Assembly: GCA_002842435.1 (NCBI GenBank)
Contig: PHCX01000006.1
Coordinates: 1 to 64,000 of the forward strand
Length of the DNA stretch: 64,000 nt
From: Betaproteobacteria bacterium HGW-Betaproteobacteria-1
Lineage (GTDB): Bacteria > Pseudomonadota > Gammaproteobacteria > Burkholderiales > Methylophilaceae
Reading direction: 5' to 3'
This document shows positions 8,577-17,724 of the stretch, piece by piece (position 1 is the stretch's first letter; each line of letters begins with the position of its first letter). The position numbers and the translations under genes were made by a program. The notes beneath the pieces were generated by a model that made no database searches, had not been told where the DNA came from, and saw nothing but the letters and a program-made list of their open reading frames with translations.

Positions 8577-8963
8577 TCAATTTAGCTCGGCAAAGATTTT
8601 TTCAGCTTCCGCCAGCATTGCTTCGATACTGGATTCACGCCCGTCCGCATCATGCACCAGTGCGCCGAACTCATGTGCCAGCGCAGCTGCAACCATGATA
8701 GCGCTGGCCTGTTCCCGTGGGTCGCCGCTCCATTGCAGGGTGGCGGCACCATCTCTTCCGTTTATTCCGTCCGTCGTATGAAAGCGCAGGGTAAAACCGG
8801 CATCCTCGCCATTCAGTGTGCAGGGTAGATAGCCGGAGCTGATAAAGGGCACGTAGTCTTCTTCCAGCGTCAGTTTGAACCCCAGGGCCTTGATTGCCGC
8901 TTGCAATCCTGCCCGCTTTGGAAAGCGGTCGCGATTAAGATATACCGTGTAATGACGTGCCAT
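8577..8963 (-). CDS. Uncharacterised protein at the end of the nif cluster
   Basis: A 128-residue soluble protein that I do not recognise. It begins MARHYTVYLNRDRFPKR, has an alpha/beta composition, and contains a single cysteine in GYLPCTLNG. No signal peptide, membrane segment or known cofactor motif is seen. It lies 55 bp downstream of the fmdB-like gene in the same direction and is the last leftward gene before convergence with the ferric reductase gene. Co-transcription with the nif cluster is plausible but less certain than for the genes further upstream. Confidence 0.65.
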   Translation of the reverse strand: MARHYTVYLNRDRFPKRAGLQAAIKALGFKLTLEEDYVPFISSGYLPCTLNGEDAGFTLRFHTTDGINGRDGAATLQWSGDPREQASAIMVAAALAHEFGALVHDADGRESSIEAMLAEAEKIFAELN

Positions 8964-9018: not shown

Positions 9019-9249
9019 TTATTTGATTTTCGGCCGTTCGGACGGCTTGTAATTGCTGAAATGGCCTTCCTTCGCGGCCCGGGCGCGACCGGCAGCGAGT
9101 ATGGAAGCAGTCTTGCCGGGTGCTGCCGGGCGCGAGACCAGTTTCTCCATGGTATTGCCGCATTGCGGGCAGGCGGGCGTGCTGTCGGACTTGGCGAGCA
9201 GTTCCACGGTCTTGTTGCAGCTGTTGCAGTGAAAGTCGTAAATCGGCAT
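9019..9249 (-). CDS. FmdB-type zinc ribbon protein
   Basis: A 76-residue protein opening MPIYDFHCNSCNKTVELL, the hallmark of the FmdB/CxxC_CxxC_SSSS regulatory family. The two zinc-binding pairs are CNSC and CPQC. The tail is basic (ARAAKEGHFSNYKPSERPKIK). FmdB was named as a putative regulator of an amidase/formamidase system, but most homologues have no proven role. It lies 15 bp after the SIR2-like gene in the nif-linked operon. Two in-frame upstream starts exist; the family-typical MPIYD start is chosen. Confidence 0.85.
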   Translation of the reverse strand: MPIYDFHCNSCNKTVELLAKSDSTPACPQCGNTMEKLVSRPAAPGKTASILAAGRARAAKEGHFSNYKPSERPKIK

Positions 9250-9264: not shown

Positions 9265-10119
9265 TTACGCCGCAACCAGCGACTTGCTCATCTTGCCGGT
9301 TTGCAGCCATTCGACGAACTGCGCCAGCGGCAGGTCGATGCGGGTGATCTGTTGCTCTTCGAGGAATTTTTCTTCCATACGCGTAAGCGGGCCTTCGATC
9401 ACCGCCCAGTGTTTGTCGCTGGAACGCTTCATGATCTGCCGTGCATAGCTGCGCGTGAGCTGGTTGTTGAAGCGGCAGCCGAGAAAGAGGAAGTTGGCGC
9501 CGTTACGCAGTTCCTGTACGCGTTGCGGGATAGGGGTCTGGATGTCGATCTCGGTCAGCACTTCGACATAGTCGGAATCGGAAATGATGAAGTTCTTGGC
9601 CGGAATGATGGAGCCCAGCGGCTTGTACAGGATCAGGTCCCAGCTGTCGGCCTCGACGGCTTCGATCTGTTCGCCCTTGTCGTTGAAGTAATTTACCCAG
9701 GTGCCAAGGTGCTCAGATTGCGATACGCCCTGAATCTGGCCCCAGTTGCTACGGCCGAACAGGGTTTTGGCCATGGCGTCGTCGTACCAGGTGTCGACGA
9801 TCAGTTGCGGTTTTTTCTTCAGGCCGTTCAGGTACTGGTGCAGGGCATTGGGCTGTGCACCCGGCGCAAAGGCTTCGTTCATCAGGTGGACGACGGTCTT
9901 GCGATGCTTGAAGTTTTCGATGAACTGGGCGGCAGCAGTCAGGTTGTTGCGGATCTTGTGCGGCACGCTGACCTTGCTGGTCAGCTGCTGCACCAGGTCG
10001 GCCGGCGTGGAGGGCACGGCGCTTCCCGGTTCCAGGTTAAGCACTTCGGGGCCGAGGTAGGGGATGGCGGTTCCGGCAGCGATGCTGTCGGCGATTTCCT
10101 TCAGGTGTGCGGTGCTCAT
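9265..10119 (-). CDS. SIR2-like protein with degenerate NAD loop
   Basis: A 284-residue protein resembling the SIR2_2-type Rossmann domain: an N-terminal helix then GTAIPYLGPEVL where active members have a GAGxS loop, a central HQYLNGLKKKPQLIVDTWYDD block where the NxD region should fall, and a late NFLFLGCRFNNQLTRSYARQI strand-helix like the family's C-terminal motif. The Gly-Ala-Gly is replaced by Gly-Pro-Glu, so NAD hydrolysis is doubtful. It is 33 bp after the DegT-like gene and 15 bp before fmdB, which ties it to nif transcription. The fold assignment is moderate; the function is unknown. Defence-type SIR2 proteins are relatives, but this context is not a defence island. Confidence 0.62.
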   Translation of the reverse strand: MSTAHLKEIADSIAAGTAIPYLGPEVLNLEPGSAVPSTPADLVQQLTSKVSVPHKIRNNLTAAAQFIENFKHRKTVVHLMNEAFAPGAQPNALHQYLNGLKKKPQLIVDTWYDDAMAKTLFGRSNWGQIQGVSQSEHLGTWVNYFNDKGEQIEAVEADSWDLILYKPLGSIIPAKNFIISDSDYVEVLTEIDIQTPIPQRVQELRNGANFLFLGCRFNNQLTRSYARQIMKRSSDKHWAVIEGPLTRMEEKFLEEQQITRIDLPLAQFVEWLQTGKMSKSLVAA

Positions 10120-10152
10120 GGTTGTTGGTTCCTGTGCTTGGGTTGTCTTTGG

Positions 10153-11349
10153 TTAATAGATCGCGGCGCCGGCGCCGACGTTGATCGATGCGTCCTTCGC
10201 TGTCTTGACGATGAAAGCTACCTGGTCTTCCGTGATGTGGCTGTGGAATGGCAGGGCGATGGCGCGGTCGGCCACTTTTTCGGTGACGAAGAAGTGGCCC
10301 TTGCGGTAGCCGTATTGCTCGATATAGGCGCGTTGCAGGTGCAGCGGTCGGCAATAGGCGGTGGCTTCCACCAGTTCGGTGTCGAGGTCTTCCACCAGCG
10401 CATCCAGGCTGCTGGCGGAGAAGCGCGTGCCGAGATGTACGGCATAGAGCATCCAGTGCACTTCATCGACACCGGGGGCGATATACGGCGGCTTGATGCC
10501 CTCAAAGCTGGAAATCTGTGCCTCGTACCAGGCTTCGACCTGTTTGCGCCGGGCGAGAATCTCCGGCAGGCGTTTGAGCTGCACCAGCCCCAATGCCGCG
10601 GCATGTTCGGTGATGCCGACATCGAGCGGCGGCCGCAATGAGGCGGTGAGAGAGGCACGTTCATGACGGCGGCGGTAGCGAAAGTGGCGTATCTTCAATG
10701 CCAGTGTGTCGTCGTCGGTGACGATCATCGCCGCCTGGCCGCAGCACAAGGCCGAAGGTTGGGAGAAGTCGAAGATCGCGACATCGCCGAAGCTGCCGAC
10801 CGGTTTGCCCTGATAGCGCGAACCGATGGATTCGGTGGCATCCTCGATCAGCAGTGTGCCGGATTGGTCTGCCAGCGTGCGCAGCTTTTCCCAGTCTGCC
10901 GGGTGGCCGTTGACGTTGACGCCGATGATGGCGCGAGTTTGTGGCGTGACCTTGGTGGCAGCCTTTTCCGCAGAGAGGGTTTGCGACCAGTAGTCGATCT
11001 CGCTCAACACCGGGGTCGCTCCTGCCCAGTGTATGGCCTGGGCTGTCTGGAACCAGCTGTAGCCGGGCGTGATCACCTCATCTCCCGGGCCGATGCCTGC
11101 GGCTTTCAGCACCAGCAGCATGCCGACGGTGCTACTACTGACGGCAATCGCATGGCGCCGGCCGGCATAGGCTGCGAACGCCGACTCAAAGGCCTCGGTC
11201 AGCGGGCCGTTGCTTTGCTGCGTGCGGCCGAGCGCCATGGCCGAGGCAGCGAATTCAGCTTCGGTATAGTCCGGGTCCGACAGTGGTATCCAGGTGTCGG
11301 TCACAGTGCTATCTGTCACAGCGTTCTTGGTTCCAGTGCTATCAGCCAT
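10153..11349 (-). CDS. DegT/DnrJ/EryC1/StrS-fold protein lacking the PLP lysine
   Basis: A 398-residue protein with the full length of sugar/amino-acid DegT aminotransferases. Conserved parts include YAGRRHAIAVSSSTVGMLLVL, DEVITPGYSWFQTAQAI, LLIEDATESIGSRYQG and the C-terminal LPFHSHITEDQ. Asp170, which would contact the PLP ring nitrogen, is kept. In the segment FDFSQPSALCCGQAA the Schiff-base lysine position is Ser199, followed by a Cys202-Cys203 pair, so normal transamination is not expected. The start is set at MADSTG, 5 bp after the preceding gene; a 22-residue upstream extension overlaps that gene and is unlikely. It lies between a small nif-linked gene and a SIR2-like gene. A structural or non-covalent PLP role is inferred. 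Confidence 0.8.
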   Translation of the reverse strand: MADSTGTKNAVTDSTVTDTWIPLSDPDYTEAEFAASAMALGRTQQSNGPLTEAFESAFAAYAGRRHAIAVSSSTVGMLLVLKAAGIGPGDEVITPGYSWFQTAQAIHWAGATPVLSEIDYWSQTLSAEKAATKVTPQTRAIIGVNVNGHPADWEKLRTLADQSGTLLIEDATESIGSRYQGKPVGSFGDVAIFDFSQPSALCCGQAAMIVTDDDTLALKIRHFRYRRRHERASLTASLRPPLDVGITEHAAALGLVQLKRLPEILARRKQVEAWYEAQISSFEGIKPPYIAPGVDEVHWMLYAVHLGTRFSASSLDALVEDLDTELVEATAYCRPLHLQRAYIEQYGYRKGHFFVTEKVADRAIALPFHSHITEDQVAFIVKTAKDASINVGAGAAIY

Positions 11350-11354
11350 GGTAC

Positions 11355-11615
11355 TTACCGTTGGGCGACGACGATGCCGCTGGCTACACTCGGGTCGCTG
11401 GTGATCTGCACACAATGCTCACGCGTATCCAGCAGGTAAAGGTTGAAATTCTCCAGCGCGCGGAACGGCGGTTCGTCCATGTCGCGGGCCGACAGTCGCA
11501 CGAAACTCAGGCCGGGAAAACAATCCTTGAGCAGCGGCAATGGGTTATTGGTCAGCTTGTTGAACTCGATCAATGCCGTTTCAATTTCGCTCAGGGTTTC
11601 TGTTGATATGCACAT
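11355..11615 (-). CDS. Small conserved nif-cluster protein (possibly DUF6129)
   Basis: An 86-residue soluble protein beginning MCISTETLSEIETALIEF, with a central NNPLPLLKDCFPGLSFVRLSARDMDEPPF segment and two further cysteines. Proteins of this size and pattern occur beside nifT/nifS in other diazotrophs, and I believe it belongs to DUF6129, but I am not certain of the name. It lies 9 bp after nifT and 5 bp before the DegT-like gene, so it is part of the nif operon. No enzyme motif is visible. Confidence 0.65.
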   Translation of the reverse strand: MCISTETLSEIETALIEFNKLTNNPLPLLKDCFPGLSFVRLSARDMDEPPFRALENFNLYLLDTREHCVQITSDPSVASGIVVAQR

Positions 11616-11624
11616 GATGGACTC

Positions 11625-11834
11625 CTATTCGCTCAAGCGGCGTGCTTCGACTGTAATCGGCAGGCGTGTGTCGGCCGCCATCTCGGGCAGCGCCAGTTGC
11701 CAGCCATTGGCCAGTGTCACCAGTCCGCCCCACATGTCGGGCTTTTCTACTTTGACGATGGGCTCTTCCAGGTCCTTCTTCGGTACATAAGCGGAGAGTT
11801 CGCCCTTTTCGTTACGCCTGATCATGACTTTCAC
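11625..11834 (-). CDS. nifT: NifT/FixU family protein
   Basis: A 69-residue protein matching NifT along its whole length: MKVMIRRNEKGELSAYVPKKDLEEPIV opening, then WGGLVTLANGW and LALPEM. NifT is conserved in nif operons, usually after nifHDK, and its role is unclear; deletion has little effect in several species. Here it is separated from any nifHDK and follows nifS by 28 bp, which is an unusual position. Confidence 0.9.
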   Translation of the reverse strand: MKVMIRRNEKGELSAYVPKKDLEEPIVKVEKPDMWGGLVTLANGWQLALPEMAADTRLPITVEARRLSE

Positions 11835-11862
11835 GATGTTTCCTTTCAGTTTGATTAACTGC

Positions 11863-13011
11863 TTACGCCGCAGCCGGCAGTCCGCCGGTCATGGCCTTGA
11901 TGATTTCCGTCACCGTAATCACGGCCAGGTCGATATCGGCTTCCGTCGTTTCCCGCGATAGCGAGAAACGTACGGTAGAGAGTGCTTCGTCACGATCCAG
12001 GCCCATGGCCAGCAGGACATGCGAAGGCTCGGTGCCGCCTGCGGTGCAGGCGCTGCCCTGCGAAGCCATGACGCCGGCTTGCCCCAGGCGGTGCAACAGT
12101 TCCTCACCGTGCAGTCCGGCAAAGCGGATGCTGCTGGTATTGGGTACGCGCGGCCCGCTGCCGTTGATGCGGATGAAAGGCAGCCTTTCCTGCAATTGCG
12201 CCTCCAGCAGGTCGCGCAAGGCACCGCGTCTTTTATCTGCTTGTGCCAAATACTCCTGCGCCATGCGGCAGGCAGTGGCCAGCCCGATGATGCCCGCCAG
12301 GTTTTCCGTGCCGCCGCGGCGGTTACGTTCCTGATGACCGTAGAACATGGGCGGCAGTGCGATGCCCTTGCGCACGAAAAGTACGCCGGTGCCTTTCGGT
12401 GCGTGTAGCTTGTGGCCGGAAAAGGAGAGCAGGTCGCAATCCAGTTGCTTGCAGTCGAGCGTGATCTTGCCTGCGGTTTGCGCGGCATCCGTGTGGAATA
12501 GTGCGCCTTGTGCCTTGGCGATTGCCGCTGCCTCGGCGACCGGGAAAATGATGCCGGTCTCGTTGTTGGCATGCATCAGCGTCACCAGCGCTGTATCTTC
12601 CGTCACCGCCGCGCGCAAGGCGGCCATGTCGAGCGTGCCGGAAGCACTGACCGGCACCTGTACGACTTCGATGCCGTCTGTTGCCAGATGCGTCAGCAGG
12701 CGCAAGGTGGCTGAATGTTCTACCGCGCTGGTCACGATGCGTTTGCGCTGCGGCTTGATGGCCAGTGCGCCGAGTATGGCCATGTGGCTGGATTCTGTCG
12801 CACCGCTGGTGAAAATGATTTCGCCCGGGCTGGCATTGAGGAAACCGGCGACCACAGCACGTGCCTTGATCAACGCCTGTTTGGCGTTCTCGCCGAAAGG
12901 GTGACTGCTGGAAGGGTTGCCATACTGCTCGCAGAACCATGGCAGCATGGCTTCCACGACCTCGGGCAGCACGCGGGTGGTGGCGTTGTTGTCGAAATAG
13001 AGCATGTTCAT
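11863..13011 (-). CDS. nifS: Cysteine desulfurase NifS
   Basis: A 382-residue class V PLP aminotransferase of the NifS branch, which releases sulfur from cysteine for nitrogenase Fe-S cluster assembly. Visible landmarks are YFDNNATTRVLPEV, HANNETG, the PLP-binding Lys201 in SFSGHKLHAPKG and the catalytic Cys322 in GSACTAGGTEPSHVL. Length is normal for NifS. It overlaps the stop of the DUF3024 gene by 4 bp, so translation is coupled. No nifU is adjacent; the A-type carrier at 15245-15634 may serve as partner in the same operon. Distinction from IscS rests on the nif context and SACTAG loop type. Confidence 0.93.
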   Translation of the reverse strand: MNMLYFDNNATTRVLPEVVEAMLPWFCEQYGNPSSSHPFGENAKQALIKARAVVAGFLNASPGEIIFTSGATESSHMAILGALAIKPQRKRIVTSAVEHSATLRLLTHLATDGIEVVQVPVSASGTLDMAALRAAVTEDTALVTLMHANNETGIIFPVAEAAAIAKAQGALFHTDAAQTAGKITLDCKQLDCDLLSFSGHKLHAPKGTGVLFVRKGIALPPMFYGHQERNRRGGTENLAGIIGLATACRMAQEYLAQADKRRGALRDLLEAQLQERLPFIRINGSGPRVPNTSSIRFAGLHGEELLHRLGQAGVMASQGSACTAGGTEPSHVLLAMGLDRDEALSTVRFSLSRETTEADIDLAVITVTEIIKAMTGGLPAAA

Positions 13012-13364
13012 CGCCAGAACTCCCGCTTGGGATCGGCGATCAGTCGTGCAAGCAACATGGCCAAGCTGAGGTATTCCGAATGGGCGCGCCAGCGGCTGGC
13101 ATCGTCATCCTTGCGATATAACCGCCAGAAACCGCCGGACTGGAATTCGATGCGGGCGATGTCGATCTCGCCGCCTTCCGGGTCCACGGTGCGCGAGCAG
13201 CAAGGGCTGCGCACGATGTAGCCTTCTTCGGCCGGCAGCACCTGTGGCGCGACGTATTTGTAGCGTTCGCGCTCAGCCAGCGTCTTTTCGATGCGCTTGC
13301 GGTCCACCTCGTTGGGGTGGGGGCAGACCGGGTCGTCGTAATCCTGAAGGGCTGGGCTGTTCAT
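13008..13364 (-). CDS. DUF3024-like nif-cluster protein
   Basis: A 118-residue protein starting MNSPALQDYDDPVCPHPNEVD. The segment NEVDRKRIEKTLAE, the aromatic FWRLYRKDDDASRWRAH stretch and the final DPKREFW match the DUF3024 pattern. It has an additional RSPCCSR cysteine pair. No enzymatic motif is known for the family. It sits 7 bp after the second nifZ-like gene and overlaps nifS by 4 bp. The frame extends 54 codons further upstream, but that part lies inside the nifZ-like gene; the ATG at 13364 is preferred. Role in nitrogen fixation is inferred from context only. Confidence 0.72.
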   Translation of the reverse strand: MNSPALQDYDDPVCPHPNEVDRKRIEKTLAERERYKYVAPQVLPAEEGYIVRSPCCSRTVDPEGGEIDIARIEFQSGGFWRLYRKDDDASRWRAHSEYLSLAMLLARLIADPKREFWR

Positions 13365-13371
13365 GATGGTG

Positions 13372-13611
13372 TCAGCCAGGCAGCAGCTCTTCTTCCAGTA
13401 CGCCGATGACCTTGCCGTCGGGGAATTCGACCAAATAAATTGGATCGCCGGTTTCTTCGATGACGCCGACATTGACGATCTCGCCATCTGAGCCTTCGGC
13501 AGCCAGCAATGTGTCGACCGGTACATCCGGGTAACTGCCGTCGTTCAGTATGTCAGCAGCCGTTTTCACGGGTTGTCCCCACTGATACCTGGGTTCTTTC
13601 GGTTCAGCCAT
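13372..13611 (-). CDS. Second NifZ-domain protein
   Basis: A 79-residue protein consisting of one NifZ-like domain. NDGSYPDVPVDTLL and GEIVNVGVIEETGDPIYLVEF correspond to the NifZ pattern VRNDGTYPG ... GYVTSIG. It ends VIGVLEEELLPG. The gene overlaps the stop of nifZ by 8 bp and is followed 7 bp later by the DUF3024 gene. Tandem nifZ-type genes are known in some betaproteobacterial nif clusters. NifZ helps P-cluster maturation of the MoFe protein; whether this short copy shares that job is unknown. Confidence 0.82.
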   Translation of the reverse strand: MAEPKEPRYQWGQPVKTAADILNDGSYPDVPVDTLLAAEGSDGEIVNVGVIEETGDPIYLVEFPDGKVIGVLEEELLPG

Positions 13612-13975
13612 GGTTTTGCTCCTCGCTCTGGGTTGGCTCATTGCTATTGCTTAGCTCATTGCTATGGACTGGCTCATCGTTGTGGGTTTGTTCCTCAACG
13701 GTTTCCTCGAACCATTCCAGTTCCTTGCCGCGCATGCCTACGCGGTATCCCAGCTCGTAAAAATCGACGCCGTAAATGTAGAACTGCTGCAGAAAAGTGC
13801 CGATGCTGGTGACATAGCCGACATCGCCCTTGTTGACGATGATGTCGCCGACCTCACGGCCGGGAAATGTGCCATCGTTGCGCACGTACTTTTTCGAGTA
13901 GACCTTCTCTCCGTAGTTGAACTTTGGCGGGTTGACCAGTTCGACTACATCACTGTCGCGACTGATGTTGGTCAT
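13604..13975 (-). CDS. nifZ: Nitrogen fixation protein NifZ
   Basis: A 123-residue protein with a NifZ domain at about 16-95: FNYGEKVYSKKYVRNDGTFPG, GDVGYVTSIGTFLQQFYIYGV and GYRVGMRGKELEWF. It is followed by an acidic, Ser/Asn-rich tail containing short near-repeats (NELSNSNEPTQSEEQ). NifZ acts in maturation of the second P-cluster pair of the nitrogenase MoFe protein. The start chosen, MTNISRD, has AGGA five bases upstream; another ATG two codons earlier is too close to that site. The gene start overlaps the LRV gene by 26 bp. Confidence 0.9.
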   Translation of the reverse strand: MTNISRDSDVVELVNPPKFNYGEKVYSKKYVRNDGTFPGREVGDIIVNKGDVGYVTSIGTFLQQFYIYGVDFYELGYRVGMRGKELEWFEETVEEQTHNDEPVHSNELSNSNEPTQSEEQNHG

Positions 13976-14741
13976 ATGCATCCTTTCTGTTTTCCAGGCT
14001 GGTTTCCAGTTCAAGGCGTTCGCGGGCGAGATCCGCAACGGTGGTGTCTTCGTCCGTAGTCATGGATTTCAGGTACTCGGTTGGCAGGCGCTGCACCGCT
14101 TCGTAACGTACGCGCCAGTCGCTGTCGAAGCGATAGGGCGGTAGCAGGTTGGCAGGCATGCGGCGTATCGCCGTCAGCCGGACTTCGTCATCACTGTCGT
14201 CGGCCAGTTTGGTCAGCCATTCCACACCGATTCTGGCGGCAACTTCGCGGCGCACGGCGGAATCCGCATCGCGCGCCAGGTGAAACAGCATGCCTGGCGC
14301 AATGCGGCGGGCGATGACCACACGCACGTAATAGTCCGGGTCATGCAGCATGCCGGATAGATCGGCCGGTTCCAGCCTTGATGCGACGCGCACCCGCACT
14401 TCGCGGTCTGGGTCATGTATCAGTTTGGTCAGTAGTTTGGCCGGCAGTCGCAGGGAAACGCTGGCCCGCACGGTTTCGTCCTGATCGTTGATCAGGCGGT
14501 TCAGCTGGAACAGGTCCAGGTATTTGGCCGCCACCGCACGCACCTCGAAATAAGAGTGGGTAATGTACTGTTTGGCGAGCCCCGGGTTGGTGCCGAAGAA
14601 GCGGTCTATGCGCTTGGCATAGCGGTCGTTCACGCAGGAACGCAGCGGGCCGCAGGTGCCGAGTGCAAGACAGTCCTGATGCTCGCAGGCGGAGCAATCG
14701 ATGGGCTGGCCTTGCCAGTCAACGGCGGGAATGTCAGTCAT
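13950..14741 (-). CDS. 4Fe-4S LRV (leucine-rich repeat variant) protein
   Basis: A 263-residue protein. The N-terminus carries a cysteine cluster (DCSACEHQDCLALGTCGPLRSC) that ligates a 4Fe-4S cluster in the Azotobacter vinelandii LRV protein. It is followed by about eight 24-residue alpha/3-10 repeats, recognisable as LL..L..D.d..VR..vA.Rl units from about residue 75 to 235, and a charged tail. The A. vinelandii homologue is encoded near nif genes; its function is unproven, though protein-protein interaction during nitrogenase assembly is plausible. The start MTDIPAVDW overlaps the preceding gene's stop by 8 bp and has AAGGA at correct spacing. Confidence 0.88.
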   Translation of the reverse strand: MTDIPAVDWQGQPIDCSACEHQDCLALGTCGPLRSCVNDRYAKRIDRFFGTNPGLAKQYITHSYFEVRAVAAKYLDLFQLNRLINDQDETVRASVSLRLPAKLLTKLIHDPDREVRVRVASRLEPADLSGMLHDPDYYVRVVIARRIAPGMLFHLARDADSAVRREVAARIGVEWLTKLADDSDDEVRLTAIRRMPANLLPPYRFDSDWRVRYEAVQRLPTEYLKSMTTDEDTTVADLARERLELETSLENRKDAYDQHQSRQ

Positions 14742-15243
14742 CGTAGTCATCCTTGCCGATCCGCTCCAGCACATCCAGCAGCAGCTGGCCACCGACCTTG
14801 TTGTCAGGGTCTAGCTCCAGCAGTTTTTCGGCAGCGATGGCGCCCTCGACCAGGCGATTGAGGCGCAACAGCAGGTAGGCATAGGCTTTCAGCACAAACA
14901 GGTAGAAACGGTGAGCTGCTTCATCGCTGCGGAAATTGGCCTGTGACGGCGTCATTTCCTGCCAGTTGCAGGGAATCTTCAATTCAGTCGCGACCGTGCG
15001 CAAACAGGTCTCGGCGACCCTGAGCGCTTCCGGCAGGCGATTCTTGTAGAAGTAGTAACGGTATTCGCCGACCTGGACGACAGGATGGTTGGGCGCTACG
15101 GCTTTGGCCAGGGTCAGGTGCATCTCGGCCCTGGCGTCATCCGAATAGGCATGGCTGGCGAGGCGTAGTTGCTCCTCCGCGACCGGGGGAAGAGTCCGGT
15201 AACGGTCAGCAAACCATGCGTTTTCTAGCGCCTCGCCTTCCAT
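14734..15243 (-). CDS. TPR-like nif-cluster protein
   Basis: A 169-residue all-helical soluble protein. Its C-terminal part (AYAYLLLRLNRLVEGAIAAEKLLELDPDNKVGGQLLLDVL) reads like one to two tetratricopeptide units, and an earlier region (YYFYKNRLPEALRVAETCL) resembles another. Similar proteins occur next to nif LRV genes; I do not know an assigned function. It begins 1 bp after the A-type carrier gene stop and overlaps the LRV gene, so it is translationally coupled within the operon. A scaffold role in Fe-S or nitrogenase assembly is inferred. Confidence 0.75.
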   Translation of the reverse strand: MEGEALENAWFADRYRTLPPVAEEQLRLASHAYSDDARAEMHLTLAKAVAPNHPVVQVGEYRYYFYKNRLPEALRVAETCLRTVATELKIPCNWQEMTPSQANFRSDEAAHRFYLFVLKAYAYLLLRLNRLVEGAIAAEKLLELDPDNKVGGQLLLDVLERIGKDDYDD

Positions 15244-15244
15244 G

Positions 15245-15634
15245 TCAGTGCTTGCGCTGGATACTGGCTACGCTCACGGTGGCTGGTCCGGCATGTTCGC
15301 CATGAGCATGCTCGCCACCGCTGCTGCTGCATCCGCAACTGCCGCTGTTAGGGGTGATGAATGTCAGGCCGGATTCCATCGGTGTGTCCTTGAAGTCGAT
15401 GGTGGCGCCATCCAGCAGGATGCGCGATTCGGCCGGCAGGAACAGTTTGAGGCCGTTGGCTTCGACGATGGCATCGCCATCGAGCGGCGCAGCTTCTACC
15501 GTGAATTCCGAACTGAGGCCGGAGCAACCACCGGGAGCAACTACCAGGCGGAAGCCGTGATCCGGAGTGCCGCCGTTAAAGCGGATCATGCGGCCGATGA
15601 ATTTTTCCGCCTTGGGCGTGATGGAGATTTCCAT
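15245..15634 (-). CDS. A-type iron-sulfur carrier (IscA/HesB family, nif-associated)
   Basis: A 129-residue A-type Fe-S assembly protein. MEISITPKAEKFIGRMI opens the fold; the first conserved cysteine is in APGGCSGLSSEF and the C-terminal pair is GSCGCSS, together the usual C...CxC ligand set. Beyond that pair is an unusual His/Gly-rich tail (GGEHAHGEHAGPATVS) not present in IscA. Nif-linked homologues are called HesB or Nif-IscA and supply clusters to nitrogenase components. It lies 7 bp after fdxN and 1 bp before the TPR-like gene. Confidence 0.88.
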   Translation of the reverse strand: MEISITPKAEKFIGRMIRFNGGTPDHGFRLVVAPGGCSGLSSEFTVEAAPLDGDAIVEANGLKLFLPAESRILLDGATIDFKDTPMESGLTFITPNSGSCGCSSSGGEHAHGEHAGPATVSVASIQRKH

Positions 15635-15641
15635 GATCGCC

Positions 15642-15860
15642 TCAGGCCTCGTAACGCGGATAAGCGGTGTCGATGATGCAGGTGTTATCCACCGGGCAGG
15701 CGGCTACGCACTGTGCCTCATCGAAGTGGCCGATGCACTCGGTGCATTTTTCCGGCTTGATGAAGAACACGCCGTTCTTCTCGTAAATGGCCTGGTTTGG
15801 GCATTCGGGCTCGCAAGCTGAGCAACCCGTACACTGTGAACCGACAATTTTGTATGCCAT
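15642..15860 (-). CDS. fdxN: 2[4Fe-4S] ferredoxin FdxN-type
   Basis: A 72-residue ferredoxin starting [21 protein letters not shown]. The first cluster motif is C-x2-C-x2-C-x3-CP. The second is C-x2-C-x8-C-x3-CP, with the longer insert typical of nif/FixX-associated 2[4Fe-4S] ferredoxins. Such ferredoxins encoded after nifB deliver electrons for NifB radical-SAM chemistry or nitrogenase. The start is the ATG at 15860; the upstream in-frame extension of nine codons has no ribosome-binding support. It is separated from nifB by 122 bp containing an inverted-repeat element (15904-15975). Confidence 0.92.
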
Positions 15861-15982: not shown

Positions 15983-17557
15983 TTACGCCGCCTTGAATGC
16001 GCCCTGACGGATTGCCGCGTCACCGCGCGCCTGGTGCTTGATCTCGCCGTTGGCGATGCGCTGACGGTAATTGTTGAACCATGACAGGGCAGCTTTTTCG
16101 ATGAACTCGTGGGCGTATTCATCTACCGGCTCGATGCCGGCTGCCTTCAGTTCGTCGCGTGGGCAGGCACCGATCTTGGCTACCAGTACGGCGTGGCAGT
16201 CGTTGATGGCGTTGACGATGGACGGCAGTTGTTCGTCCTCGCCGAATCCGCCCTGGCAGTAGAGGTCGACGCGTCTGTGGCCGACGAACAGGGCTTCATC
16301 CTTGCTCACTTCGAAGATCTGGAATTCGGTGGCATGGCCGAAATGCTGGTTGACCTTGCCGTGACCTTCAGTGGCAACCGCGACCAGCACCTTCATGCTT
16401 GGGTCAACGTTCTCCAGGTCCAGCGCTGCGGCCAGTGCATCAACCTTGGCCTGGTGTTGCGAAACACGCTCAGCCTCGACTTTTTCCTGATAGGCGCGGC
16501 GTTTTTCCAGGTCGTAGACGATTTCCATGTCCTCGATCTTGTCCAGCGTGAATTCGTCCGAACGGTCTTCGCCCAGCAGGCCGACAGCATCTGCACGGCA
16601 CTGGCGGCAGTGGCGCATGAGGTTGGCGCCGCCCATGCAGGCATCCTGCACTTCTTTCAGTTCCTGGGCAGAGGGGCCGCGCTGGCCGGTCAGTCCGAAT
16701 ACGGTGCCGTGTTCGGGTTCGGAGATCAGCGGCATGATGTTGTGCAGGAAAGCGCCGCGTTTCTTCACTTCGCGATTGACTTCGATCAGGTGTTCGTCGT
16801 TGATGCCGGGGATCAGCACCGAGTTGATCTTGGTCAGCACGCCGCGTTCGGTCAGCATCTCCAGCCCCTTCATCTGCTGTTCGTGCAGGATGCGGGAGGC
16901 TTCCACACCGGTGATACGCTTGTGGTTCCAGAAGATCCAGGGGTAGATCTTGGCGCCGACCTCCGGGTCAACCATGTTGATGGTGATCGTGACGTGGTCG
17001 ATGTTGTATTTGCAGATCTCGTCGACCTGCTCTGGCAGTGCCAGGCCATTGGTTGAAATACAGAGCTTGATGTCCGGTGCGGTCTCGTGAAGCATGCGCA
17101 TGGTGTCGAAGGTCTTCATCGGGTTGGCGAGCGAGTCGCCGGGACCGGCAATGCCAAGCACCGTCATCTGCGGAATCTCGCTGGCGACAGCCAGCACTTT
17201 CTTGACGGCCTGTTCCGGTGTCAGCTTCTGGCTGACGACACCGGGACGTGATTCGTTGGAGCAATCGTACTTGCGGTTGCAGTAGTTGCACTGGATGTTG
17301 CAGGCGGGGGCTACCGCTACATGCATGCGGGCAAAATGGTGATGGGCCTCTTCGGAATAACAGGGGTGGTTCTTGACCTTGTCCCAGATTTCCGCCGGCA
17401 TGTCGTCGGGTCCGGCCGAGGAGCCGCAGCTCGCCTTGCCTTCGCCGCCGGTAGAACCGCAACCGGAAGATGTCTGTCCCGCGATTTCGACCTTGATACC
17501 GTCCAGTGGCTTGAGCCGGCTCTGGCCCGGTGCCGCGTCTTGCAGTGCGTTTTCCAT
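15983..17557 (-). CDS. nifB: Nitrogenase cofactor biosynthesis protein NifB
   Basis: A 524-residue radical SAM enzyme that makes NifB-co, the 8Fe precursor of FeMo-co. The SAM cluster motif is Cys86-x3-Cys90-x2-Cys93 in [15 protein letters not shown]. Other Fe-S ligand cysteines are seen in the Gly/Ser/Cys-rich N-terminus and in [13 protein letters not shown]. From about residue 395 a NifX-like domain begins ([22 protein letters not shown]), as in classical bacterial NifB. Transcription should start from the sigma-54 promoter 38 bp upstream. It is the first gene of the leftward accessory operon. Confidence 0.96.
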
Positions 17558-17594: not shown

Positions 17595-17610
17595 AGCAAG
17601 TCGCGTGCCA
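17595..17610 (-). promoter_or_regulatory. Sigma-54 (-24/-12) promoter of nifB
   Basis: On the minus strand the sequence reads TGGCAC-GCGAC-TTGCT, an exact match to the sigma-54 consensus with the invariant GG and GC correctly spaced. It lies 38 bp before the nifB ATG. Two NifA-type activator sites and an IHF-like site lie upstream. Transcription should begin about 12 bp past the TTGCT element. Confidence 0.93.
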
Positions 17611-17678: not shown

Positions 17679-17694
17679 TGTCACCATTGCGACA
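17679..17694. promoter_or_regulatory. NifA upstream activator site (proximal)
   Basis: TGT-N10-ACA, the canonical NifA binding sequence, is embedded in a longer perfect inverted repeat whose arms are GGCTTTGTC and GACAAAGCC. It lies about 70 bp upstream of the -24 element of the nifB promoter. Confidence 0.85.
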
Positions 17695-17708: not shown

Positions 17709-17724
17709 TGTCGCAAATAACACA
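17709..17724. promoter_or_regulatory. NifA upstream activator site (distal)
   Basis: A second TGT-N10-ACA site starts exactly 30 bp from the proximal one, about three helical turns, so both face the same side of DNA and could support cooperative NifA binding. Confidence 0.82.

Follow-up and report, generated by a model that had tools for sequence, protein, structure and literature searches.

The list of proteins that assemble nitrogenase is still incomplete, and the transfer of nitrogen fixation (nif) genes to new hosts needs every helper to be known. Sirtuin folds are, to our knowledge, not usually counted among the Nif accessories. Here we analyse two adjacent genes, encoding a SIR2-fold and a DegT-fold protein, in a stretch of 64,000 nucleotides (contig PHCX01000006.1, positions 1 to 64,000 of the forward strand; GenBank: GCA_002842435.1) from Betaproteobacteria bacterium HGW-Betaproteobacteria-1 (Methylophilaceae). 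The whole stretch is referred to as the window.

SIR2-family genes in nif clusters are already in print. Zymomonas ZMO1821 is a SIR2-family gene inside the nif cluster (PMC8594446), is upregulated under N2 fixation and was named a likely deacetylase from its annotation and co-induction (PMC8600466). Rhodobacter capsulatus Rcc03262 is listed beside NifT and was not found in a nifA deletion (PMC6925177), and a SIR2-family gene follows nifT in Rhodovulum (PMC9412634). P. stutzeri PST_1325, assigned to the SIR2 family, precedes nifH (PMC11332353); its phenotype was published in 2010 under the name of a conserved hypothetical protein, the non-polar mutant retained 23% of the nitrogenase activity of the wild type when assayed with 0.1 mM ammonium and 0.5% oxygen, and ranked lowest of nine genes tested (PMC2820453). 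The sirtuin-like M. loti gene msi351 sits in the order nifB-fdxN-nifZ-fixU-msi351 (PMC3538637). The main text of one further paper, in the portion available, does not name SIR2 (PMC7860042), and another treats SIR2 outside a nif context (PMC11227200). In these published accounts, as far as accessible, we found no remark on a loss of the catalytic pair in nif SIR2 proteins. A role of DegT proteins with nif or nitrogenase was not found in print among the matches listed, which were available in part.

We report the folds of both proteins, the loss of their catalytic residues, their restriction to genomes with nif, their gene order and their purifying selection. We incline, if modestly, to the view that the two assist the maturation or protection of nitrogenase as accessory factors that act by binding and not by catalysis.

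Catalytic residues of the SIR2-fold protein

The two genes lie next to each other on the minus strand:

9265..10119, minus strand: SIR2-fold protein, 284 amino acids (aa); W111 at the catalytic asparagine (Asn), L168 at the histidine (His), GPE for the GAG loop; Pfam SIR2_2, E=3.7e-22; structure model with a predicted local distance difference test score (pLDDT) of 89.3
10153..11349, minus strand: DegT-fold protein, 398 aa; S199 at the Schiff-base lysine (Lys), D194 at the serine (Ser) of the FSF motif, GQAA for GEGG; Pfam DegT_DnrJ_EryC1, E=6.5e-87; structure model with pLDDT 90.3

Pfam matches and conservation across dozens of genomes mark both open reading frames (ORFs) as real genes. An earlier sequence-only reading of the window had quoted FDFSQPS(199)ALCCGQAAM from the DegT-fold and PYLGPEVL from the SIR2-fold protein, and these letters are correct.

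The SIR2 model, over residues 1-276, best matched the SIR2 domains of ThsA and DSR2, with KomC close. The top four VIA-align matches had Z 17.4-17.5 and a root-mean-square deviation (rmsd) of 3.3-3.5 over 238-242 aligned residues; a true sirtuin was also among the fold matches (1ici; Z 12.9, rmsd 3.2, 197 aligned). The VIA list is a re-scoring of Foldseek matches, and absence from it proves nothing. Alignment to ThsA-type NADases, for which we take N112 and H152 of ThsA to be the catalytic residues, placed W111 and L168 at the positions of the catalytic Asn and His, respectively. Both losses had escaped the sequence-only reading, which named the altered loop.

The comparison was extended to 119 rows including the window copy, some species being present as both genome and named contig, so that the rows are not all distinct species. 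Rows sharing a 100-residue stretch had been merged (181 to 120) and the fragment L109 set aside; alignment A3 holds 55 of the 79 SIR2 relatives together with the window. Tryptophan (Trp) with a non-His residue was found in 96 rows, Trp with His in six, Asn with a non-His residue in 16 and glycine (Gly) with leucine in one. Trp thus occupies the Asn place in 102/119 rows and the His place is non-His in 113/119, while both catalytic residues together occur in 0/119. As a small control, four SIR2_2 proteins encoded outside nif in these genomes, scanned with regular expressions, carried TTNYD or TTNWD in 4/4, K-x-HG in 2/4 and GAG in 3/4 cases. In a quick, midpoint-rooted tree the Asn group was split off by a branch with a support of 100 in the SH-like approximate likelihood ratio test (SH-aLRT), and the Trp and Asn groups look like one fold disarmed by two separate routes.

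The loop keeps its first Gly in 118/119 rows, the remaining row reading X. This Gly is followed by proline (Pro) in 95 and alanine (Ala) in two of the 102 rows with Trp, and by Pro in six and Ala in eight of the 17 others. The exchange of GA for GP, which the sequence-only reading had put forward for testing in nif-linked members, holds for the Trp group and is mixed among the others.

The SIR2-like protein has been proposed, in the case of ZMO1821, to act as a lysine deacetylase that would control the acetylation of NifA and nitrogenase. The suggestion was drawn from annotation and co-induction (PMC8600466), and true sirtuins do occur among the fold matches. However, the best matches are NADase-type SIR2 domains, the residue at the His place is mostly another one, and the two catalytic residues never stand together among the 119 relatives, a set in which ZMO1821 itself is not contained. 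Judged by these residues, the printed deacetylase idea conflicts with our alignment, and we consider it very unlikely for nif SIR2 proteins.

Another possibility is that the protein binds but does not turn over nicotinamide adenine dinucleotide (NAD+) or ADP-ribose, and tunes the control of NifH by DraT and DraG or reports the NAD level. Related folds bind NAD+, the loop nearly always retains its first Gly, and draT and draG are located near nifHDK in the window's genome. Yet Trp occupies the Asn place in most rows, and Zymomonas has a nif SIR2 gene, and no draT or draG was found there (PMC8594446). We regard this explanation as unlikely.

Residue changes in the DegT-fold protein

The best Foldseek matches of the DegT-fold protein were ArnB (template modelling scores 0.85/0.92) and perosamine synthase, and the best sequence match was a perosamine synthetase (E=4.7e-76); it has the fold and the family profile of the DegT/DnrJ/EryC1/StrS aminotransferases. 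For comparison we used 67 nif-type sequences, namely the window copy and those of 66 of 80 related loci with a near full-length DegT (71 loci had a match; 14 loci were left uncounted). Alignment A4 contains 52 of these 66 relatives and the window. The 27 non-nif DegT sequences were drawn from a search of ten genomes (34 hits, of which 30 had loci and five of these were nif-type; G058 gave only its nif copy) and, in two cases, from the window's own genome.

At the column of the Schiff-base Lys the nif-type sequences have Ser in 38, Gly in 27, Ala in one and leucine in one case, and Lys in 0/67; the non-nif sequences have Lys in 23, His in three and methionine in one. The sequence-only reading had placed Ser199 at this column, and the 23/27 Lys of the non-nif set bear it out. 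At the FSF serine, which in ArnB contacts the phosphate of pyridoxal 5'-phosphate (PLP), all 67 nif-type sequences have aspartate (Asp; D194 in the window) and all 27 non-nif sequences Ser. D170, the Asp at the PLP ring, is retained in 67/67, as had been claimed for the window, and so is E173. N145, H149 and A151 are invariant in the nif-type and variable in the non-nif set. Going by the alignment, nif-type DegT has a changed pocket common to the whole clade; since the change is shared in this way, the loss of Lys is a conserved trait and neither a local mutation nor a misalignment.

Two further features stressed by the sequence-only reading did not extend across the clade. The glutamate of the GEGG loop is kept in 55/67 sequences; glutamine, lysine or arginine stands there only in the window and in ten Methylophilaceae-type loci (L110-L119), a group also placed by the tree, and Asp in L189. 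Loss of GEGG, although real in the window and these relatives, was therefore rejected as a defining trait. The Cys-Cys pair, suggested as a holder of metal, has its first Cys in only 17/67 sequences and its second in 62/67, and was rejected as a metal site. Binding of PLP without turnover, also raised earlier, looks less likely because the residue at the phosphate place is Asp throughout, which would speak against PLP as a cofactor.

The DegT-like protein may still be an enzyme that uses pyridoxamine 5'-phosphate (PMP) or another ligand, in the manner of the Lys-less ColD and E1, and is fed by the [2Fe-2S] ferredoxin encoded next door in many loci. ColD and CDP-4-keto-6-deoxyglucose-3-dehydrase belong to the same family, His stands at the Lys place in 3/27 non-nif sequences, and D170 at the PLP ring is kept. 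Against this, nif-type sequences have Ser or Gly in 65/67 cases and never His, their FSF serine is Asp without exception, the ferredoxin is of the iron-sulfur cluster (ISC)-like kind, and the annotation of the Methylococcus locus includes no sugar-nucleotide gene. An enzymatic role of this type appears distinctly unlikely to us.

On a plasmid of a Bradyrhizobium from peanut nodules the nif DegT consists of two overlapping frames (L192:16918-18325); the gene is not listed there and looks broken, and SIR2 is annotated.

Distribution and purifying selection

Occurrence was analysed in an order sample of 300 genomes from 135 genera and in a phylum sample of 398 genomes, with nifD thresholds of 1e-100 and 1e-150, respectively. 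The order sample contained nifD in 47, SIR2 in 48 and DegT in 27 genomes (26, 25 and 13 genera). SIR2 was present in 46/47 nifD-positive and 2/253 nifD-negative genomes, and DegT in 26/47 and 1/253, so that the frequencies with and without nif are far from equal. The phylum sample had SIR2 in 17 and nifD in 41 genomes, both in 15, and SIR2 in 2/357 nifD-negative genomes. SIR2 and DegT are restricted to genomes with nif, with four exceptions as judged by nifD, two of which (G135, G538) carry a nif operon; the other two are G201 and G366. In G135, an exception for both genes, the order nifA-nifB-...-nifT-DegT runs to a contig end, and the ferredoxin, a small protein and SIR2 lie on another contig; its nifHDK is therefore probably missing from the assembly. 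G538 shows nifA-nifB-ferredoxin-nifZ-nifT-SIR2, and nifH was found neither there nor in G366.

The range of SIR2 is wider and that of DegT narrower. In the order sample, DegT went unmatched in 21 of the 48 genomes with SIR2, whereas DegT was never seen without SIR2 (27/27 in the order sample and 4/4 among 38 further nifD-positive genomes). SIR2 may be the older partner of the two.

SIR2 matched 75 plasmid records, of which 55 were from Rhizobium; on the R. etli CFN 42 plasmid it comes after nifB-ferredoxin-nifZ-nifT. Two contigs labelled Granulicella, Acidobacteriota (L182, L186), carry SIR2 with nif genes and gave no DegT match; transfer or a binning error is possible.

Among 13 close pairs the ratio of nonsynonymous to synonymous substitutions (dN/dS; Nei-Gojobori) was 0.063-0.36 for SIR2 (11 pairs) and 0.021-0.211 for DegT (12 pairs), pairs with saturated dS (two for SIR2, one for DegT) being excluded. 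Both genes are under purifying selection although the catalytic residues are lost.

These data bear on the explanation that the SIR2 gene is a parked phage-defence NADase, or that both genes are decaying and have no function in nitrogen fixation. The nearest folds are indeed anti-phage SIR2 proteins, and one Bradyrhizobium plasmid has a broken-looking DegT. The restriction to nif genomes and the selection on both genes argue against it, as do the NifA dependence and the mutant phenotype reported for SIR2-family genes that are known by annotation. A defence role was rejected on genome distribution, no defence-gene library having been searched, and we hold the explanation as a whole to be highly improbable.

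Gene order in the window

The two genes stand late in a run on the minus strand that begins with nifB (start 17557) and closes with the gene of an FmdB-type zinc ribbon (9019). The order is nifB, 4Fe-4S ferredoxin, IscA-type, TPR-like, LRV-FeS4, two NifZ, DUF3024, NifS-type, NifT, an 86-aa ORF, DegT, SIR2 and FmdB:

17709..17724, minus strand: NifA-type upstream site TGT-N10-ACA, found by eye from the sequence
17679..17694, minus strand: second NifA-type upstream site TGT-N10-ACA, found by eye from the sequence
17595..17610, minus strand: candidate sigma-54 (-24/-12) site ahead of nifB, exact consensus match in a pattern search
15983..17557, minus strand: nifB, first gene of the run; 60-71% match to genes annotated nifB in the R. 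etli, Methylococcus and Bradyrhizobium loci
15642..15857, minus strand: 4Fe-4S ferredoxin (family scan)
15245..15634, minus strand: IscA/HesB-type iron-sulfur (Fe-S) assembly protein (family scan)
14734..15243, minus strand: TPR-like protein (TPR_2, 3.6e-4, below the cut-off)
13950..14792, minus strand: LRV FeS4-cluster protein (domain scan)
13604..13984, minus strand: second NifZ-domain protein (domain scan)
13372..13641, minus strand: NifZ-domain protein (domain scan)
13008..13526, minus strand: DUF3024 protein, ORF as listed; the domain covers residues 70-171
11863..13011, minus strand: nifS-type cysteine desulfurase; best family TIGR03402 with 466.4 bits, under the cut-off of 530.75
11625..11837, minus strand: nifT/fixU; Pfam NifT, E=5.4e-32
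11355..11615, minus strand: 86-aa conserved ORF between nifT and DegT; DUF6129 only at E=0.084, below the cut-off; match in 64/80 related loci
9019..9249, minus strand: FmdB-type zinc ribbon (Pfam/NCBIfam); 3' of SIR2 also in the ten Methylophilaceae-type loci L110-L119

The spacings of 5, 33 and 15 bp given by the sequence-only reading are correct, the 33 bp being the gap between DegT and SIR2; two of the neighbours had been misnamed. What lies 5 bp upstream of DegT is the 86-aa ORF and not nifT, which comes next and is followed by the nifS-type gene, and the gene 15 bp downstream of SIR2 encodes the zinc ribbon. The exact sigma-54 consensus has one match in the 64 kb against a mean of 0.20 expected, at least one match occurring in 17/100 shuffles. 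The candidate sigma-54 and NifA sites before nifB lie about 7.5 kb upstream of SIR2.

Beyond the zinc ribbon, a 128-aa ORF (8577-8963, minus strand) without a Pfam or NCBIfam match is matched in 5/80 related loci.

Gene neighbourhoods in related loci

Neighbours were counted in 80 named loci with up to 10 kb per side, short contigs depressing the counts. NifT was matched in 73, DegT in 71, NifZ-type in 69, NifB in 64, the 86-aa ORF in 64 and NifS-type in 60 of them; nifB, nifT, nifZ, nifS, IscA and LRV-FeS genes form the context of the related loci.

In 51 of the 66 loci that contain a full DegT, a [2Fe-2S] ferredoxin lies between DegT and SIR2 or directly after SIR2. DegT, SIR2 and the ferredoxin share a single locus in Methylococcus capsulatus Texas and in Sulfuricella; DegT and SIR2 also occur in Azoarcus or Aromatoleum. 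The ferredoxin is closest to the ISC ferredoxin (1i7h; TIGR02007 below the cut-off), and with this best match an identity as FeSII is unsupported. A protein of about 70 aa, matched in 41/66 of these loci and placed between ferredoxin and SIR2 (e.g. L131:9804-10013), gave no Pfam or NCBIfam match. The loci without an adjacent ferredoxin number 15, and ten of them are L110-L119. The window's own genome carries the ferredoxin (74% identical) at G000:C4:20662-20955, 10.6 kb from nifD, so DegT and ferredoxin still share this genome; the idea that the window's group had lost the ferredoxin is thereby rejected for the window's genome, those of the ten relatives not having been searched.

DegT and SIR2 look like linked but separable units. 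In L243, L246 and L192, SIR2 follows nifT and DegT stands at the end of the nifB run, apart from SIR2; in L243 and L246 the separated DegT adjoins the ferredoxin. An obligate pair was rejected on this separation and on the many genomes that have SIR2 without DegT.

Three other genes were noted nearby. Methylococcus sp. EFPC2 has a BolA family gene after SIR2 (L191:12857-13126), possibly a further Fe-S trafficking neighbour. The window's genome has draG and draT near nifHDK (L258; G000:C4:4124-5938; Pfam ADP_ribosyl_GH and DRAT; TIGR02662 above the cut-off). Another [2Fe-2S] ferredoxin follows immediately after nifK (L258; G000:C4:11812-12156; Pfam Fer2) and presumably resembles the FeSII/Shethna type that shields nitrogenase.

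A possible role as accessory factors

DegT and SIR2 would be late members of a nifB operon of the NifA/sigma-54 type for Fe-S and molybdenum-iron (MoFe) maturation factors, and one transcript may span the run from nifB to SIR2. The SIR2-fold protein would represent a widespread, nif-dedicated and catalytically disarmed sirtuin-fold factor. The DegT-fold protein would be a disarmed aminotransferase of narrower range, always accompanied by SIR2 and travelling with the ISC-like ferredoxin. Both may raise the yield or the stability of active nitrogenase, as assembly scaffold or by protection; the non-enzymatic mode and the client are part of this proposal. An assembly or protection factor had been suggested before, and is supported in part by the residue losses, the nif restriction and the 23% activity of the PST1325 mutant (PMC2820453); its Cys metal site is not.

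Several observations weigh against such a role. The M. loti msi351::lacZ strain was fully effective in symbiosis according to the accessible text (PMC3538637), hence the SIR2 factor is not needed everywhere. PST1325, ZMO1821, Rcc03262 and msi351 are linked to the window family by annotation and gene order only. One of the two catalytic residues survives in some SIR2 members, the His in six and the Asn in sixteen, and residual or changed chemistry is possible in these. No SIR2 match was obtained in 26 of the 41 nifD-positive genomes of the phylum sample, nor in G132, a member of the order sample that carries both nifD and nifH. The order and phylum searches each scored no more than six candidates from any one genome, so some matches may be missed. 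G201 and G366 have SIR2 without a nifD match, the available contig of G201 being 5.2 kb long and the 13.8 kb around SIR2 in G366 giving no match to the nif proteins of the window. The Fisher p-values (about 1e-50 for SIR2 in the order sample) ignore the relatedness of the genomes.

One SIR2-family mutant with a defect in free-living cells at low oxygen, and another without any in the nodule, would fit a factor for fluctuating oxygen or supply, and from these two species the SIR2 factor may matter under such conditions. More speculatively, DegT, the ISC-like ferredoxin and SIR2 might form a new module of nitrogenase maturation or oxygen protection, in which a rebuilt PLP pocket with the invariant D194, D170, E173, N145 and H149 would accommodate a metal, the precursor of a cluster, or a carboxylate (homocitrate, for example), and the Trp-plugged sirtuin fold would be the docking partner; taken as a whole, this reading seems unlikely to us. 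The analysis adds two conserved candidates for nitrogenase helpers, SIR2 with a published relative by annotation and place, and DegT, which we did not find in print. If the folds have been recruited for binding, they are an example of dead enzymes turned into assembly parts.

Comparison with known systems

NifZ, NifT, NifW and other maturation accessories share the operon or regulon with DegT and SIR2 and have different folds; partial phenotypes are known for some of them, e.g. fixU in M. loti (PMC3538637). Among the SIR2 genes of nif clusters in print, ZMO1821, Rcc03262, PST1325 and msi351 have the same annotation as the window SIR2. They are located next to nifT/fixU (Rcc03262, msi351), before nifH (PST1325) or in the nif cluster (ZMO1821), and these reports link their expression to N2 fixation or NifA; the likeness is one of annotation and gene order.

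NADases of the ThsA, DSR2 and KomC type have the same fold and the same Pfam family SIR2_2. In contrast to them, the window SIR2 is a stand-alone protein of 284 aa with Trp at the Asn, Leu at the His and a GPE loop, and is encoded in a nif operon. Sirtuin deacylases have the catalytic His, whereas the window protein has L168 and only 6/119 relatives a His. ArnB- and GDP-perosamine synthase-type aminotransferases share the fold and the family DegT_DnrJ_EryC1 with the window DegT; unlike these, nif DegT has Ser or Gly for the Lys, Asp for the FSF Ser and the invariant N145, H149 and A151. The PMP-dependent dehydrases ColD and E1 belong to the same family and are likewise without the Schiff-base Lys. 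ColD and E1 carry His at this place, where nif DegT has Ser or Gly in 65/67 sequences and never His.

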